DNA of 64,000 nt from Candidatus Aegiribacteria sp. MLS_C (GTDB taxonomy: Bacteria > Fermentibacterota > Fermentibacteria > Fermentibacterales > JCC-6): the NCBI GenBank assembly GCA_002030045.1, contig LQBI01000030.1:1-64000 (forward strand), given 5' to 3'. Both the position numbers and the translations under genes were made by a program. The notes under the pieces are model-generated. The model had not been told where the DNA came from. It searched no databases and worked only from the letters and a program-made list of their open reading frames with translations. Positions 28,751-36,082 of the stretch are shown one piece after another; positions within the stretch are counted from its first letter, which is position 1, and every line of letters starts with the position of its first letter.

Positions 28751-31522
28751 CTGGTCGGAAGGCGGCACCAGCTGTCCGAGGCAGTCCGGTTCGCCGATTC
28801 GGTGGAAATGGACGGCGGGACCGGGCTGGTCCGCATCTGGGCCCCTCCCGGACTGGGCAAGACCAGACTTGTCCTGGAGATGGAAAGGTCGATGCCTTCC
28901 CGAAGGTTCCTCTATCTCAGGGGAGACCGACCTCCGGGCGGGACCGTATTCGGAGCTTTTCTCGCTCAGTGGTTCGGACTGGACCCTCGCAGGGAAGTCC
29001 GGTGGAACCGGGAAGCGTTCGAAAGGGTATGGCAGGGACTGTCGCTTGACCCGGCCGCCCGTCACCTGGACCTCGAGGGCAGGAAGCCTTTTCTGAGTCA
29101 TCTGGCCGGTCTTCCGGCGGATGAGGTCGTCACCCGCGCGGACCCCGAGGAGAGATGGGAGAGGACCGCCGCCTCCCTCACATGCCTGATGGACATACTT
29201 GCCTCAAGGCAGAGCCTGGTCGTGGTCCTCGAGGACCTCCACCGGTTCACCCGGGACGAGATCGGCATGACATCCAGGATCATCGGTGCAGGGACCGGCG
29301 CTTCGAGGCTTTTCGTGGTCACCGGAAGACCGGACGATGAGGGGATCCCGCCGGGACTGACGAGTATCTCGCCCATGGTGCCGGCGCTGGAGATCCGGCT
29401 GGAGGGGCTCCCCAGGCACAGCCTGACCGAATTCCTGGAGGAGGGCGGAGCGGAACGTCCATCCCGGGACCTGGAGGAGTACCTCTGGAACGTTGCCGGG
29501 GGGGTTCCACTGTTCCTGGGTCTCGCGGTGGATTATCTCAGGGAGTCCGGAAGACTGGCAGTCTCCCCGGATGGAACGGGACTGGCCTCGCCTGCGGGCC
29601 GGCTCCCGTCGTCGATCGAGGAGATATTCAGGTCAAGGTTCGACCTCCTGACACCCTTCGAGAGGAAGCTGGCAGCCGCCGGGGCGGTGGTCGGCCCCGG
29701 AGTCCCGCTCAGCGAGCTTATGGCCATGGCGGACTGCGACGGACCCGAAGACGGCCCGGATCGCGGCAGACTGTCCTGGATCATGACACTGGAAGATGAC
29801 GTAACGGTCTTCACCCACGAGATGGTAAGGGAATGGGTACTGGGATCGGTCCCAATCGAGCAGCTGCCGGACCTCCATCTGAGAGCAGCGGAAGTCCTTG
29901 CCGGAAGGAAGGGGATTCCGGCTTCGCCTTCGCTTTCCGAGAGGCTGGCCGGTCATCTCATGATGGGGGGGGACACGGAGAGGGCTCTGGAGTACCTGGA
30001 GAGTGCGGCCAGGGGGTACGCCGGGGATTTCAGGAACGACCTGTCCGCCAGGCTGTACCGGAAACTGGTCCCTCTTCTCGAGGACCCGGGCAGGATCCGG
30101 CGGGAACTGGATCTGTACGACGTCTACAAGCAGGCGGGACTCCTGAGGGAAGCCGCGGATCTCCTCTCCTCGACCCTGAAGAGGGCCGATCCCTCTGCCG
30201 TGCCTCCGGGCCTGCTGGCGGAGGTGGAACTCAGGCTCGGCGAGAGCCTGGGCTCAGCCGGCAGGCTGGAGAGGGCGGAGGAACTGGTAAGGGACAGCCT
30301 GAGGATCTTCACCGGCCTGGACGATCTGGAGAACATGTCCAGGGCACACAGACAGCTGGGCATGATACTGATGGCCTCCGGCAGGACGGAGGAGGCCCTG
30401 GAGTCCACCGGCAGCTCCGTAGAGCTGGCCAGGAGGACGGGGGACGCGAGACTCGTCTGCGCCGCCCTCTACTGGGCGGCGATCAACTGGCGTGAAGTGG
30501 GGGACCACCGGCGTATGGAGTCCTGCACCCTGGAGCAGGTGGAGCTGGCCGCGGCCTCGGGTCTGACACGCAGCATAATAGCCGGCTATGACAACCTGAT
30601 GCGAGTCCACATCTACAGGGGGGAATACGGCGAGGCCGAGGAGGTCCACGAGAAGCTGAGGGAGGCGGCCGAGAGGACCGCCAACTGGGCCGCCCTGAAC
30701 ACCGCCGCCAGCAAGATGGGAATCATACACCTTCGCAGGGGCGAGACAGGCGAAGCCGCGGACTGCTTCCGAAGATGCCTGTCGCTGTCGGACAGGACGG
30801 GCAATCTGCGGGCCCGATGCGCTGCCCTCGGCAATCTCGCCCACGCGGCGGTCCTGACGAAGGATACCTCGGCCGCCATGGTCTTTGCAACGGAACTCAT
30901 AGACCTCGCGGGAAGAATCGGCTACGTACCGGGACTGATGTCCGGATACGCCAGGATGGCATACGTGCTCAGAATGATGGGGGATCTCCATTCGGCTCTG
31001 GAATGCCTGCAGACCCAGATAGAGTACGCGGAAGTGCTGAAGGATTCCCGCAACATCTCCGACGCCTGGGCGATGACCGCGGAGATACAGTACGTACTGG
31101 GCGACCTGGACGGTTCGCTGGCCAGCATAGAGAGAGCGCTGGAACATTCGACTGCGGCCGGCGACATGCTCCTCCGGGGGAGCCAGCTGGTTCAGAAGGG
31201 AAGGTACCTCTTCATGGCCGGCGACCCCGAAGGCGCGGCCGTTCACCTGATGGAAGCCCTGAAGAACAACAGGGACAGGAAGGGTCGGGAGCACGTGGTA
31301 TTACGTTGCCGGATGTACCTGGAGGCCATCGCCGGGAACGACGTGACAGGTATGCTCCGGGAGGACATGGAACCCGAGGTGGAGGCTGAGGTGCACTTCC
31401 TCCGCTGGAAGGTAACTGGCGATCCCGCTTCGGCGGAGAGGGCCAGGGCTCTCCTGGATCTGGCAGGTCCCTTCGAATCCCATCCGATCCTTCGAGCGCT
31501 CGCGGACACCGTATCTTCCTGA
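28751..31522 (+). CDS. large AAA/STAND-like ATPase with TPR repeats
   Basis: From CTG at 28751 the protein has 923 residues. It begins with the VGRRHQL box of AAA_16/STAND ATPases, then Walker A (PPGLGKTR, about residue 33) and Walker B-like VVVLEDLHRF (about 157). A winged-helix-like middle follows. From about residue 380 to 880 there are many TPR-type helix pairs. No DNA-binding, kinase, nuclease or cyclase domain is fused, unlike MalT or adenylate cyclase relatives. A GTG at 28802 would lose the VGR box. CTG at 28751 has GAGGGG as SD; CTG 28739 and ATT 28724 are alternatives. Confidence 0.82.
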   Translation: MVGRRHQLSEAVRFADSVEMDGGTGLVRIWAPPGLGKTRLVLEMERSMPSRRFLYLRGDRPPGGTVFGAFLAQWFGLDPRREVRWNREAFERVWQGLSLDPAARHLDLEGRKPFLSHLAGLPADEVVTRADPEERWERTAASLTCLMDILASRQSLVVVLEDLHRFTRDEIGMTSRIIGAGTGASRLFVVTGRPDDEGIPPGLTSISPMVPALEIRLEGLPRHSLTEFLEEGGAERPSRDLEEYLWNVAGGVPLFLGLAVDYLRESGRLAVSPDGTGLASPAGRLPSSIEEIFRSRFDLLTPFERKLAAAGAVVGPGVPLSELMAMADCDGPEDGPDRGRLSWIMTLEDDVTVFTHEMVREWVLGSVPIEQLPDLHLRAAEVLAGRKGIPASPSLSERLAGHLMMGGDTERALEYLESAARGYAGDFRNDLSARLYRKLVPLLEDPGRIRRELDLYDVYKQAGLLREAADLLSSTLKRADPSAVPPGLLAEVELRLGESLGSAGRLERAEELVRDSLRIFTGLDDLENMSRAHRQLGMILMASGRTEEALESTGSSVELARRTGDARLVCAALYWAAINWREVGDHRRMESCTLEQVELAAASGLTRSIIAGYDNLMRVHIYRGEYGEAEEVHEKLREAAERTANWAALNTAASKMGIIHLRRGETGEAADCFRRCLSLSDRTGNLRARCAALGNLAHAAVLTKDTSAAMVFATELIDLAGRIGYVPGLMSGYARMAYVLRMMGDLHSALECLQTQIEYAEVLKDSRNISDAWAMTAEIQYVLGDLDGSLASIERALEHSTAAGDMLLRGSQLVQKGRYLFMAGDPEGAAVHLMEALKNNRDRKGREHVVLRCRMYLEAIAGNDVTGMLREDMEPEVEAEVHFLRWKVTGDPASAERARALLDLAGPFESHPILRALADTVSS

Positions 31523-32237: not shown

Positions 32238-32777
32238 ATGGTGGCAGTGATACCCCCTGAATGGGACCTTTCCCCTTCAGGAGGAACGGTCGTGGTGAGA
32301 CGGAGCGGACCGGGGGAAGCCCTGGAAGATGTTCGCAGAGCCCTGTCCGATGGCGAGAGGCTCTTCCTGATAGGGACGGAGGGAGCAGCCCTGAAGAACG
32401 GGTTCGTGGTTGCTACCGACCACATGGCCCTGTTCGGCTCCAGCGCCCTCGCAGGACCAAACCGCGACGACCTGGGCCCCAGGTTCCCTTCGCTGATGGG
32501 CCTTTATCTCGCCCCCGCGGGAGACTGGGAAACCGGCGTCGTTGCCAGGGTGCCCGACTGGAAACTGGCGACGCCTGCGGAATTCAGGCTCCTCGGTGCG
32601 GAAGCCCTGGTATCGGAGGGAGTGGGAGAAGCCGAGATCGCGGGTCACGGGGGAGGAAGGGTGCTCTTGCTCGTCAGGTGCCATTTATGGGGCAGTATGA
32701 ACCGGCAGGAACCGCCATTGATGGAAGCGGCAGCTGCAGCTGCCGCGGCCGCGGCCGCGGCGGATATGGGAAACTAA
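32238..32777 (+). CDS. shortened purine nucleoside phosphorylase-like protein, probably non-catalytic
   Basis: The 179-residue protein aligns with the middle and C-terminal parts of trimeric PNP/MTA phosphorylase. VATDHMALFG and GPNRDDLGPRFPSLM correspond to the family ITDHINL and GPN...GPRFP motifs, and a later GAEALV...GHGGGRV segment matches the base-binding region. The N-terminal phosphate-binding GSGLG and the RFHYYEG segments are absent. Positions equivalent to the purine-contacting Glu and Asn appear to be Ala and His. It ends in a 12-residue poly-Ala run. ATG at 32238 with AGAGGT as SD. It precedes ileS by 25 bases. Confidence 0.7.
   Translation: MVAVIPPEWDLSPSGGTVVVRRSGPGEALEDVRRALSDGERLFLIGTEGAALKNGFVVATDHMALFGSSALAGPNRDDLGPRFPSLMGLYLAPAGDWETGVVARVPDWKLATPAEFRLLGAEALVSEGVGEAEIAGHGGGRVLLLVRCHLWGSMNRQEPPLMEAAAAAAAAAAAADMGN
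32727..32762 (+). repeat. 12-codon GCN tract encoding poly-Ala
   Basis: Twelve consecutive Ala codons close to the end of the PNP-like gene, made of a GCAGCT duplication followed by repeated GCCGCG units. Such tracts can change length by slippage. The third-base mix shows it is not a pure microsatellite. Confidence 0.9.
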
Positions 32778-32802
32778 GCATTCACCGAGGGAGGTGAGGA
32801 GC

Positions 32803-35580
32803 GTGAACTATAAGGATACCATAAAGTTGCCAAGGACCAGCTTCTCCATGAAGGGCAACCTCATCGCCATGGAACCGGAGACACTGGAAAGATGGAAACG
32901 CGATGACATATACGGCAGGATAAGGAAGGCGCGCAAAGGCTGTCCGGAGTTCATCCTCCACGACGGGCCTCCCTACGCCAACGGCCACGTCCACCTCGGT
33001 ACCGCTCTCAACAAGATACTGAAGGATTTCATAGTCAAGTCCTACACGATGATGGGATACGACTCCCCCTACGTGCCGGGCTGGGACTGCCACGGGATGC
33101 CGATAGAGCACAGGGTGATGACCGACCAGCCGGAGAAGGGCTCGGGCCTGGACCTGGGGGAGATAAGGCACAGGTGCCGGGAATACGCGGCTAAGTACGT
33201 GGACGTCCAGAGGGAGGAGTTCAGGCGACTGGGAGTATTCGGTACCTGGGAGCGTCCCTACCTCACAATGAGCAGGGACTACGAGGCCGGCATAGTGAGG
33301 GCCTTCGGCAGTCTGGTGGAGAAGGGGTACGTCTACCAGGGCATGCGGCCCATACACTGGTGCATGAACTGCGGCACCGCACTTGCCGAGGCGGAGGTGG
33401 AGTACGGCGACCACACGTCACCCTCGATCTACGTAGCTTTCCTGCAGGAAGACGAGGCGGAGTGGGAGTCCAGGGGTGTGCCCGCGGGTACGGAGACCGT
33501 CATATGGACGACCACGCCGTGGACACTGCCGGCTAACCTCGCGGTTGCACTGAGCCCCGGCGAGAGGTACGTCCTCGTGGGATCAGGGGGCAGGACCTTC
33601 CTGGTGGCCGAGAAGAGGGCTTCCGCATTCCTGCGGGACACCGGGATGACCGGTGAAGTGCTTCCGGGAACCGTTTTCGCAGGGAACGAGCTGGAGGGGC
33701 TCCGCATGAAGCACCCGGTGTTCGGCGACAGGACCTCGGTGATGATAGTCGCCGAGCACGTGACCATGGAGGACGGTACCGGCTGCGTCCATACCGCTCC
33801 CGGACACGGCGCCGAGGACTTCATCGTAGGCCAGCAGTACGGTCTGCCCGTCTTCAGCCCGGTGGACGAGAGGGGAGTTTTCTCTGGCGAGGCCGGGAAG
33901 TACTCTGGAATGGGCGTCTTCGATGCGAACAGGGTGATCATTGACGACCTGGCCGGATCGGGCAGGCTGCTCCATGCCTCCTCGACCGCCCACAGCTACC
34001 CCCACTGCTGGAGATGCAGGAGTCCCCTGATATTCAGGGCCACCAGGCAGTTCTTCCTGGACCTTTCCAGGAGCGGTCTCAAGGACCGGGTCCTGGAAAG
34101 GGTGGACGAGGTCCAGTGGCATCCGGGATGGGGCTACGAGCGGATGCGGAACATGATGAGCGTCAGGCCCGACTGGTGCCTTTCGCGGCAGAGGGCCTGG
34201 GGGGTGGCGCTGCCGGTCTTCACCTGCGGCCGGTGCGCCGAACCTGTGCTCGACCAGGGGGTGATATACGCCGTTGCTGACCTGGTGGCGGAGAAGGGGT
34301 CCGACGTATGGTTCGATATGTCTCCGAAGGAACTCTTCGCCCTGGCGGGCCGTGAACCCCTCTGCCCAGCCTGCGGAAGCAGGGAGCTGGAGAGGGTGGA
34401 CGACATCCTCGACGTATGGTTCGACAGTTCGCTTAGCCATTACAACGTTCTCAAGGAGGACTACGGGCTCTCCCGTCCCGCCGCCGTCTACCTCGAGGCC
34501 ACAGACCAGCACAGGGGCTGGTTCGGGGTGAGCATGATAACCAGCGAGGCACTGGAGATGGGAAGACCGGCGGACCACATAATCACACACGGGCTCATAC
34601 AGGACAGGAGCGGCCGCAAGATGTCCAAGTCCCTGGGCAACGTCATATCTCCGCTGGAGATCATTGACCGGCAGGGAGCTGACATACTGCGTCTCTGGTT
34701 CGCCAGCGTGGACTACACCGCGGACTTCAGGGCGGACCTCTCCCAGCTGGACGACGCCAGGGAGGCATACCGGAAGCTCAGGAACACGCTGCGGTTCATG
34801 CTGGGCAACATAGCCGGCATGGAGGACTTCGACCTGGAACCCGGGAAGCTGGCAGGCTTCGACAGGTACATATACCTTAGGTTCAGGAAGCTGATGCGCT
34901 TCTGTATTGACGAGTACGGCAGGTTCCAGTTCCACAGGGTATACCGCGAGCTGCGCAACTTCGCGGTCATAAGCCTTTCCGGGCAGTTCCTTGACATGCG
35001 CAAGGACCGTCTCTACTGCGGCGCGACCGATTCCACGGAAAGCGTCGGGACCAGGAAGGTCATGGCCTGGATGCTCAGGGGACTTGTCCAACTGCTGGCT
35101 CCGCTGATACCCTTCACCGCAGAGGAGGCATGGACGGAGCTTCCCGAAGGGCTGAGAGGAGAGGACGACAGCGTCCACCTGTCCCTCTACCCCGAGGGAG
35201 GGTCCCTGGAGGAGAGCCCGGAGGAGAGGGAGGAGCTGGAGGCCTGGACCCCGTACCTCGAGGCAAGGAAGGTGGCCCTCAAGGTGCTGGAGGAGAAGAG
35301 GGCCGCCGGGGAGATCGGCGGGGGCCTCGACGCCATGGTCCGGCTCACCGTGCCCGAAGGCATGGAGGGATCCGCAAACGGTGAGGACTGGGCCGACTTC
35401 CTGATAGTATCCCAGGCGGATGTTACCGCGGGAGAAGAGGTGACCGTCTCAGTGGAAAACGCTGCAGGAGGAAAATGCAACCGGTGCTGGAGGATACTTC
35501 CCGAGGTGGGTGAGCTTGAACCCGGCGACGTGTGCGCCAGGTGCGCGGCGGTCCTCGAGGGGATGGAACCCGATGACTGA
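32803..35580 (+). CDS. ileS: isoleucyl-tRNA synthetase
   Basis: The 925-residue class I enzyme charges tRNA-Ile. It has the HIGH-type motif PYANGHVHLGTALNK, an editing domain (about residues 190-390), GRKMSKSLGN and a C-terminal zinc motif (CNRCW...CARC). The GTG at 32803 is chosen because GGAGGTGA lies five bases upstream and it gives MNYKDTIKLPRT; another GTG lies at 32794. LspA overlaps its stop by 8 bases, the common ileS-lspA pairing. Confidence 0.97.
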   Translation: MNYKDTIKLPRTSFSMKGNLIAMEPETLERWKRDDIYGRIRKARKGCPEFILHDGPPYANGHVHLGTALNKILKDFIVKSYTMMGYDSPYVPGWDCHGMPIEHRVMTDQPEKGSGLDLGEIRHRCREYAAKYVDVQREEFRRLGVFGTWERPYLTMSRDYEAGIVRAFGSLVEKGYVYQGMRPIHWCMNCGTALAEAEVEYGDHTSPSIYVAFLQEDEAEWESRGVPAGTETVIWTTTPWTLPANLAVALSPGERYVLVGSGGRTFLVAEKRASAFLRDTGMTGEVLPGTVFAGNELEGLRMKHPVFGDRTSVMIVAEHVTMEDGTGCVHTAPGHGAEDFIVGQQYGLPVFSPVDERGVFSGEAGKYSGMGVFDANRVIIDDLAGSGRLLHASSTAHSYPHCWRCRSPLIFRATRQFFLDLSRSGLKDRVLERVDEVQWHPGWGYERMRNMMSVRPDWCLSRQRAWGVALPVFTCGRCAEPVLDQGVIYAVADLVAEKGSDVWFDMSPKELFALAGREPLCPACGSRELERVDDILDVWFDSSLSHYNVLKEDYGLSRPAAVYLEATDQHRGWFGVSMITSEALEMGRPADHIITHGLIQDRSGRKMSKSLGNVISPLEIIDRQGADILRLWFASVDYTADFRADLSQLDDAREAYRKLRNTLRFMLGNIAGMEDFDLEPGKLAGFDRYIYLRFRKLMRFCIDEYGRFQFHRVYRELRNFAVISLSGQFLDMRKDRLYCGATDSTESVGTRKVMAWMLRGLVQLLAPLIPFTAEEAWTELPEGLRGEDDSVHLSLYPEGGSLEESPEEREELEAWTPYLEARKVALKVLEEKRAAGEIGGGLDAMVRLTVPEGMEGSANGEDWADFLIVSQADVTAGEEVTVSVENAAGGKCNRCWRILPEVGELEPGDVCARCAAVLEGMEPDD

Positions 35581-36082
35581 CGGGAGGCTCCGGCTGCTGG
35601 GATATACTGCGGCGGCAGGTGTTCTTGCCGCCGACCAGGTTGCCAAGAGGATGGCCCTGGGCTGGCTGGACCTGCACAGACCGGTGGAGGTCATCGGTAA
35701 CCTTCTCAGGCTGACCCTTGTCTGGAACAGCGGGGCCGCTTTCAGCCTCCCCTGGGGCGGGCCTGTCTTCCTGGCCGTAATAACCGGTGCAGCAGCAGTA
35801 CTGGTTTCGATACTGATATGGAGACTCAGGGACCGGTCTCCCGGTTTCGTCATCGGTCTCGGCGCCATACTCGGAGGCGCCCTGGGAAACCTGCTGGACA
35901 GGTTCATGTACGGCAGGGTCGTGGATTTCATAGATATAGGTCTGGGCGGCAGTCGCTGGCCGACCTTCAATGTGGCCGACGTGGCCATCACCATGGGGGG
36001 ACTGGTCCTCGTGATCCTCTACAGGAGGAAGGGACCGGGTGAAACCGGGGAAAGTGAGGACGAAGGCCGTGGGAGCAGCTAG
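35573..36082 (+). CDS. lspA: lipoprotein signal peptidase
   Basis: The 169-residue aspartyl peptidase has four membrane helices. The catalytic Asp pair lies in NLLDRFMYGRVVDFID and FNVADVAI, and VWNSGAAFS is the other conserved motif. It removes signal peptides from Lgt-modified lipoproteins. ATG at 35573 overlaps ileS by 8 bases. Stop is one base before the carbamate kinase ATG. Confidence 0.94.
   Translation: MTDGRLRLLGYTAAAGVLAADQVAKRMALGWLDLHRPVEVIGNLLRLTLVWNSGAAFSLPWGGPVFLAVITGAAAVLVSILIWRLRDRSPGFVIGLGAILGGALGNLLDRFMYGRVVDFIDIGLGGSRWPTFNVADVAITMGGLVLVILYRRKGPGETGESEDEGRGSS

Follow-up and report, generated by a model that had tools for sequence, protein, structure and literature searches.

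A catalytically dead, loop-bearing relative of purine nucleoside phosphorylase as a probable subunit of a divided enzyme in Fermentibacterota

Introduction

Purine nucleoside phosphorylase (PNP), a purine salvage enzyme and drug target, is a textbook homo-oligomer. In its ordinary trimeric form, each subunit donates a long loop to the next subunit and accepts one from the previous. At the interface of the calf enzyme, loop 141-168 of one monomer lies against residues 87-91 and 196-205 of the next, and Phe159 is the only active-site residue that comes from the neighbouring subunit (PMC9916683). The 6Ala interface mutant is mainly monomeric, with activity lowered about 1e5-fold; F159A by itself is mild, human PNP being hardly affected (PMC9916683).

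A second point of reference is offered by the prozymes, dead paralogues that activate the AdoMetDC and deoxyhypusine synthase of trypanosomatids (PMC5201418, PMC3663545). In the window, by which we mean the whole 64,000-nucleotide stretch of DNA that was analysed, a gene upstream of ileS encodes a short protein that bears comparison with both systems. It resembles trimeric PNPs (TIGR01697/PRK08202; the human and calf enzymes) in the fold of the C-terminal two thirds, in the Phe159 interface loop and a TPAE motif, and in a gene position, divIVA-[PNP]-ileS, that is found in several phyla; it differs from them in lacking the phosphate loop, GRxHxYEG, Glu201, Met219, Asn243 and His257, and in having 179 rather than about 280 residues. 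Like the prozymes, it is a catalytically dead paralogue of an enzyme, stripped of catalytic residues and maintained together with an impaired active partner, here in 39/42 Fermentibacterota genomes as well as in further lineages. Unlike the prozymes, the split of PNP would follow the donor and acceptor faces of a cyclic trimer, and it is found in bacteria and in several lineages; the dead partner here has about 180 residues, and its complex with the active paralogue and the activation of the latter are proposed from sequence. To our knowledge, the division of a homotrimer into donor-only and acceptor-only products in several lineages is undescribed, and no report of a heteromeric PNP was met in the literature searched, which lay mostly outside subscription journals.

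A short PNP-derived protein conserved upstream of ileS

The open reading frame under study starts with ATG and is a real gene. Together with the parts that matter for its relation to PNP, it is laid out as follows (residue numbers such as D134, F159 and E201 are elsewhere those of human/calf PNP):

32238..32777, + strand: short PNP-derived protein (putative donor-only subunit, "beta"), 179 aa; single copy in 41 of 42 Fermentibacterota genomes, at 34-75% identity
32224..32231, + strand: Shine-Dalgarno-like AGAAGAGG, 6 nt upstream of the ATG, read from sequence
32238..32402, + strand: residues 1-55, in place of the N-terminal half of PNP, without the GSGLG phosphate loop and GRxHxYEG
32418..32507, + strand: putative donor (Phe159-type) interface loop DHMALFGSSALAGPNRDDLGPRFPSLMGLY, residues 61-90; D61, H62, F83, P84 and Y90 invariant; low AlphaFold2 confidence in the isolated chain
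32568..32570, + strand: Ala111, where PNP has the purine-binding Glu201; among 40 relatives Ala in 23, Ser in 15, Gly in 1 and Val in 1, never Glu
32803..35580, + strand: ileS (isoleucyl-tRNA synthetase), GTG start at 32803; in most relatives its translation is coupled to that of the short gene
35510..36082, + strand: lspA (signal peptidase II); ileS and lspA are neighbours as in other phyla

A DUF167 gene (yggU family) lies upstream of the short gene, and ileS-lspA downstream. The initial annotation had described a PNP-like pseudoenzyme with a clear Shine-Dalgarno sequence just before ileS, and both the signal and the position hold. The relationship to PNP proves to be significant but partial. 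The window protein matches NCBIfam PRK08202 at E 8.7e-7 over residues 56-148 only, corresponding to about 128-235 of PNP; it falls short of the family cut-off for trimeric PNP (TIGR01697, 24 bits vs 197), and a Pfam search with it gave no match, PNP_UDP_1 included. A profile of the short family matches PNPs in the PDB at E 1.6e-11. The AlphaFold2 model (pLDDT 84.8, pTM 0.84) has PNPs as its top PDB matches (E 2.6e-7, TMq 0.58-0.60), a partial agreement with the PNP fold, and residues 61-90, the loop, are its sole poorly ordered part when the chain is modelled alone, the termini aside.

Across the phylum, what has been kept and what has been lost are sharply partitioned. Equivalents of D134, H135, F159, P160 and Y166 are found in all 40 short proteins compared and R158 in 38, and the interface loop with Phe159 (DH..L.GPN..GPRFP..Y) is retained in 40/40. 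None of the 40 has S33, R84, H86, E201, M219, N243 or H257, nor the GSGLG and GRxHxYEG phosphate/ribose motifs, in agreement with the loss of the N-terminal phosphate site and the change of purine-contacting residues (Glu201 to Ala, Asn243 altered) noted previously. Judged by its motifs, the short protein is a PNP-derived pseudoenzyme from which all catalytic motifs have been lost.

Orthologues of similar length, whose existence had been left to be checked, occur as a single copy in 41/42 Fermentibacterota genomes (24/24 of the good ones), mostly at 170-186 aa, and the gene is always directly 5' of ileS. An ileS start can be recognised in 24 relatives; the stop of the short gene overlaps it in 19 of them and is no more than 2 nt away in 2 others. 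The median pairwise dN/dS is 0.20 (81 pairs, dS<1.5). The short gene is under purifying selection and is not debris, in line with the initial annotation.

A loopless catalytic PNP fused to RimI, the putative partner

Besides the short gene, the superfamily is represented twice in the window genome, by an MTAP-like gene (L031) and by a RimI-PNP fusion (P0002):

L032:694-1989 (G000:C35), + strand: RimI-type acetyltransferase fused to PNP ("alpha"), between a tsaB-like gene and folC

Both GNAT and PNP_UDP_1 are recognised in the fusion, which is present in 40/42 Fermentibacterota genomes and is the only other trimeric-type PNP there. S33, R84, H86, Y88, E201, M219, S220, N243 and H257 are kept in essentially all readable copies among the 40. 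The interval from D134 to Y166 is 21-22 residues, as against 30 in ordinary PNP, and the GPN....GPRFP segment is missing from the loop in 40/40. The search for another PNP in the genome, suggested earlier as a check, thus yielded a catalytically complete enzyme, albeit one without the interface loop, and the losses in alpha and beta are complementary. Because Glu201 and Asn243 are retained, 6-oxopurine nucleosides are the suggested substrate, although the fusion has TSSSGA in place of the TNAAGG motif.

The two genes co-occur, although they are not adjacent: both are single copy in 39/42 phylum genomes and in 24/24 good ones, and the three genomes without the full pair are 61-80% complete. In a mirror-tree comparison, beta correlated with the PNP half at r 0.93 and as highly with the RimI half, at 0.955; fragmentary sequences distorted the IleRS distances. 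No literature was found on this joining of PNP to RimI, a ribosomal-protein (S18) acetyltransferase.

Loopless PNPs and their putative partners in other lineages

To look for recurrence elsewhere, 329 genomes were scanned with the short-family profile, which matched mostly ordinary full-length PNPs, plus short ORFs in G095, G122, G263, G152 and G289. A second, catalytic PNP is present in four of these five (G095, G122, G152 and G289), and in each the loop is absent; in G263, which is 94% complete, no catalytic PNP was detected beside the donor-type short protein. Further loopless enzymes were taken from low-scoring PNPs irrespective of partners. Two loci stand out:

L119:1333-2022 (G263), + strand: donor-type short protein
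L199:1033-1929 (G035:C45), - strand: full-length degenerate PNP, 299 aa, loop intact, between divIVA and ileS

The 299-aa protein of G035 reads GEELE, AIPAEG, GPGSMSG and GAGVVHE where the catalytic motifs would be. Like the window protein, it has kept the loop and lost the catalytic motifs, with a loopless catalytic PNP alongside; it differs in its still undiminished length, and from its sequence it looks like an evolutionary intermediate stage. A fragment of a gene of the same degenerate type lies at a contig edge in G195, which also has a loopless PNP. In G144 and G120 the loopless PNP is accompanied by a degenerate protein with the loop, of 198 and 251 aa respectively, and in G329 by a 190-aa donor-loop protein. 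In G322, G312, G182 and G319, the second PNP is loopless, and the PNP that accompanies it has the loop and retains a catalytic appearance. G144 has a tandem lspA pair (L197:2-984, - strand) downstream of its short protein.

In total, 16 genomes outside Fermentibacterota have a loopless PNP, 15 with a visible loop-bearing partner and one with the contig-edge fragment; in 12 of them the partner is degenerate, and in the other 4 it looks catalytic. The degenerate-partner pairs include those of G095, G122, G152, G289, G120, G144, G035, G329, G330, G150 and G286, and the phyla assigned to split pairs are Fermentibacterota and one common to G286, G150, G329 and G330. When 14 short proteins from 7 lineages are compared, no columns are invariant except those of D134, H135, Y166 and a single loop Leu; F159 and one Gly come close.

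G286 and G150 have a loopless or loop-altered PNP and at first had no visible partner, and the search for one served as a prospective test. A cross-lineage profile built from the 14 short proteins, none of them from these two genomes, detected a donor-loop protein in both, one of 262 aa (E 7.6e-9) and one of 257 aa (E 2.3e-8), and a further one in G330. With the same profile, no additional donor was found at E<0.05 in six loop-bearing genomes. A control with TIGR01697, a profile insensitive to the most divergent betas, gave no donor proteins in about 60 loop-bearing genomes. A 2x2 table of loopless PNP against partner, counting the phylum once, gives a Fisher value of 5e-8, which is inflated because some alphas were found via their betas; the prospective test is the fairer of the two. 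Weak extra matches in G170, G310, G296 and G071 were rejected as unrelated nucleosidase-type or ABC ORFs.

Origin of the short gene

An intact, loop-bearing PNP is encoded beside divIVA, ileS or both in G099, G322, G312, G237, G177, G166, G170, G215 and G224, arranged as divIVA-PNP-ileS or divIVA-PNP-dksA-lspA (examples of intact PNPs near divIVA, ileS or lspA are L121, L122, L123, L152 and L166). The degenerate proteins of G035, G120, G144, G122, G152, G289, G263 and G095 belong to the same cluster (yggS, yggT, divIVA, dksA, lspA). Since an intact PNP fills the divIVA-[PNP]-ileS/lspA site in several other phyla, the best interpretation of the window gene is as a positional orthologue of the divIVA-type PNP, cut down to its donor part. 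Most intact divIVA-type PNPs fall into one clade (18 rows, SH-aLRT 97); they mostly have Asp at 243 and lack His257, and may therefore act on a different substrate from classical PNPs.

Loopless enzymes lie at several places in the tree, with 7 changes on the best tree. An independent-pairs test found too few supported pairs. Independent losses of the loop are likely rather than proven, because well-supported branches force only one change.

A proposed division of donor and acceptor roles

Alpha is loopless and retains the catalytic residues, and beta bears the loop and is catalytically dead; the two therefore probably form one enzyme. With a probability of roughly 0.7, we regard the short protein as the non-catalytic subunit of a hetero-oligomeric PNP in which the RimI-PNP fusion would be the catalytic subunit. 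The donor and acceptor roles of trimeric PNP would then be divided between two gene products: in its PNP half, alpha would combine active site and acceptor face but have lost the loop, and beta would keep the loop and have lost the active site. The beta loop is predicted to dock on the HHYQGY/YETSAE face of alpha, and docking would order the alpha active site; the simplest geometry would be one alpha and one beta in an open arrangement that has a single active site. From the observed conservation, the complementary losses, the co-occurrence and the locus shared with true PNPs we infer the physical association of alpha with beta, the activation and the stoichiometry. Of the two roles that the initial annotation had offered for the short protein, that of assembly partner fits better, and the specific partner would be the RimI-PNP fusion.

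The other role, that of a purine sensor, may be framed as a short protein that senses purines or nucleosides by itself and regulates the coupled ileS, its loop serving only for folding. Its constant place 5' of ileS in the phylum, with stop and start overlapping or nearly touching, speaks for such a role, but every ligand-contacting residue, for base, ribose and phosphate, is gone, and the most conserved part of the protein is the subunit-interface loop and not the core. Moreover, the equivalents in other lineages precede dksA, HDOD or subtilase genes or follow a recombinase gene, not ileS; and because an intact PNP sits before ileS elsewhere, the position is an inherited one. We therefore consider a sensor unlikely.

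Similarly improbable is a self-sufficient alpha, in which the loopless catalytic PNP would be a monomer or a different oligomer and the short proteins would have gained an unrelated function. The PNP superfamily does include several oligomeric forms, and human PNP can do without Phe159 itself (PMC9916683), yet this explanation accounts neither for the loop-bearing partner of every loopless PNP examined nor for a partner that conserves just the loop. That the short gene is a decaying remnant of an ancestral divIVA-ileS PNP gene would agree with its being the positional orthologue of an intact PNP and with the early stop and Ala expansion of the window genome; retention in 41/42 genomes, a dN/dS of about 0.2 and an invariant loop already contradict it, leaving it scarcely credible.

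Beyond the phylum, we hold it reasonably likely, if less so than the pairing in Fermentibacterota, that the cyclic interface of PNP has been split repeatedly into acceptor-only catalytic and donor-only dead subunits, constituting an unrecognised heteromeric class in several phyla whose catalytic subunit in Fermentibacterota is also fused to RimI. If a division of PNP into two subunits is indeed the correct reading, these genomes would form a set showing how homomers become obligate heteromers, with graded stages represented by an intact pair (G322), a full-length degenerate partner (G035) and a minimal donor (Fermentibacterota). Why trimeric PNPs need their neighbour would become directly testable, and a group of small unannotated proteins near divIVA, ileS and lspA would be explained.

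Local peculiarities of the window copy

The 3' end of the window gene departs from that of its relatives:

32727..32762, + strand: 12 Ala codons in a row, peculiar to this genome
32778..32813, + strand: codons after the TAA, still spelling the conserved tail AFTEGGEEREL, and the ileS ribosome-binding site

The run of 12 Ala noted in the initial annotation is present, and no conserved meaning attaches to it: none of the relatives has it (in 28 of them, C-terminal Ala runs reach 5 at most), and it stands where the nearest relative has a short Ala-rich helix end, EAAEAA. An in-frame TAA at 32775 ends the protein early, and the codons beyond it match the tail of the nearest relative; because the TAA precedes these tail codons, the overlap with the ileS start is gone in this copy. 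The poly-Ala run and the early stop are unconserved traits of this genome. The Ala codons are GC-rich, NotI-like repeats followed by the early TAA, and an assembly or sequencing error in 32727-32813 is possible. A search of the region 5' of ileS against Rfam gave no T-box or other RNA, two sub-threshold matches being taken as chance. Two genes upstream of the short gene, positions 28802-31522 encode a 906-aa AAA ATPase and MalT-like TPR protein.
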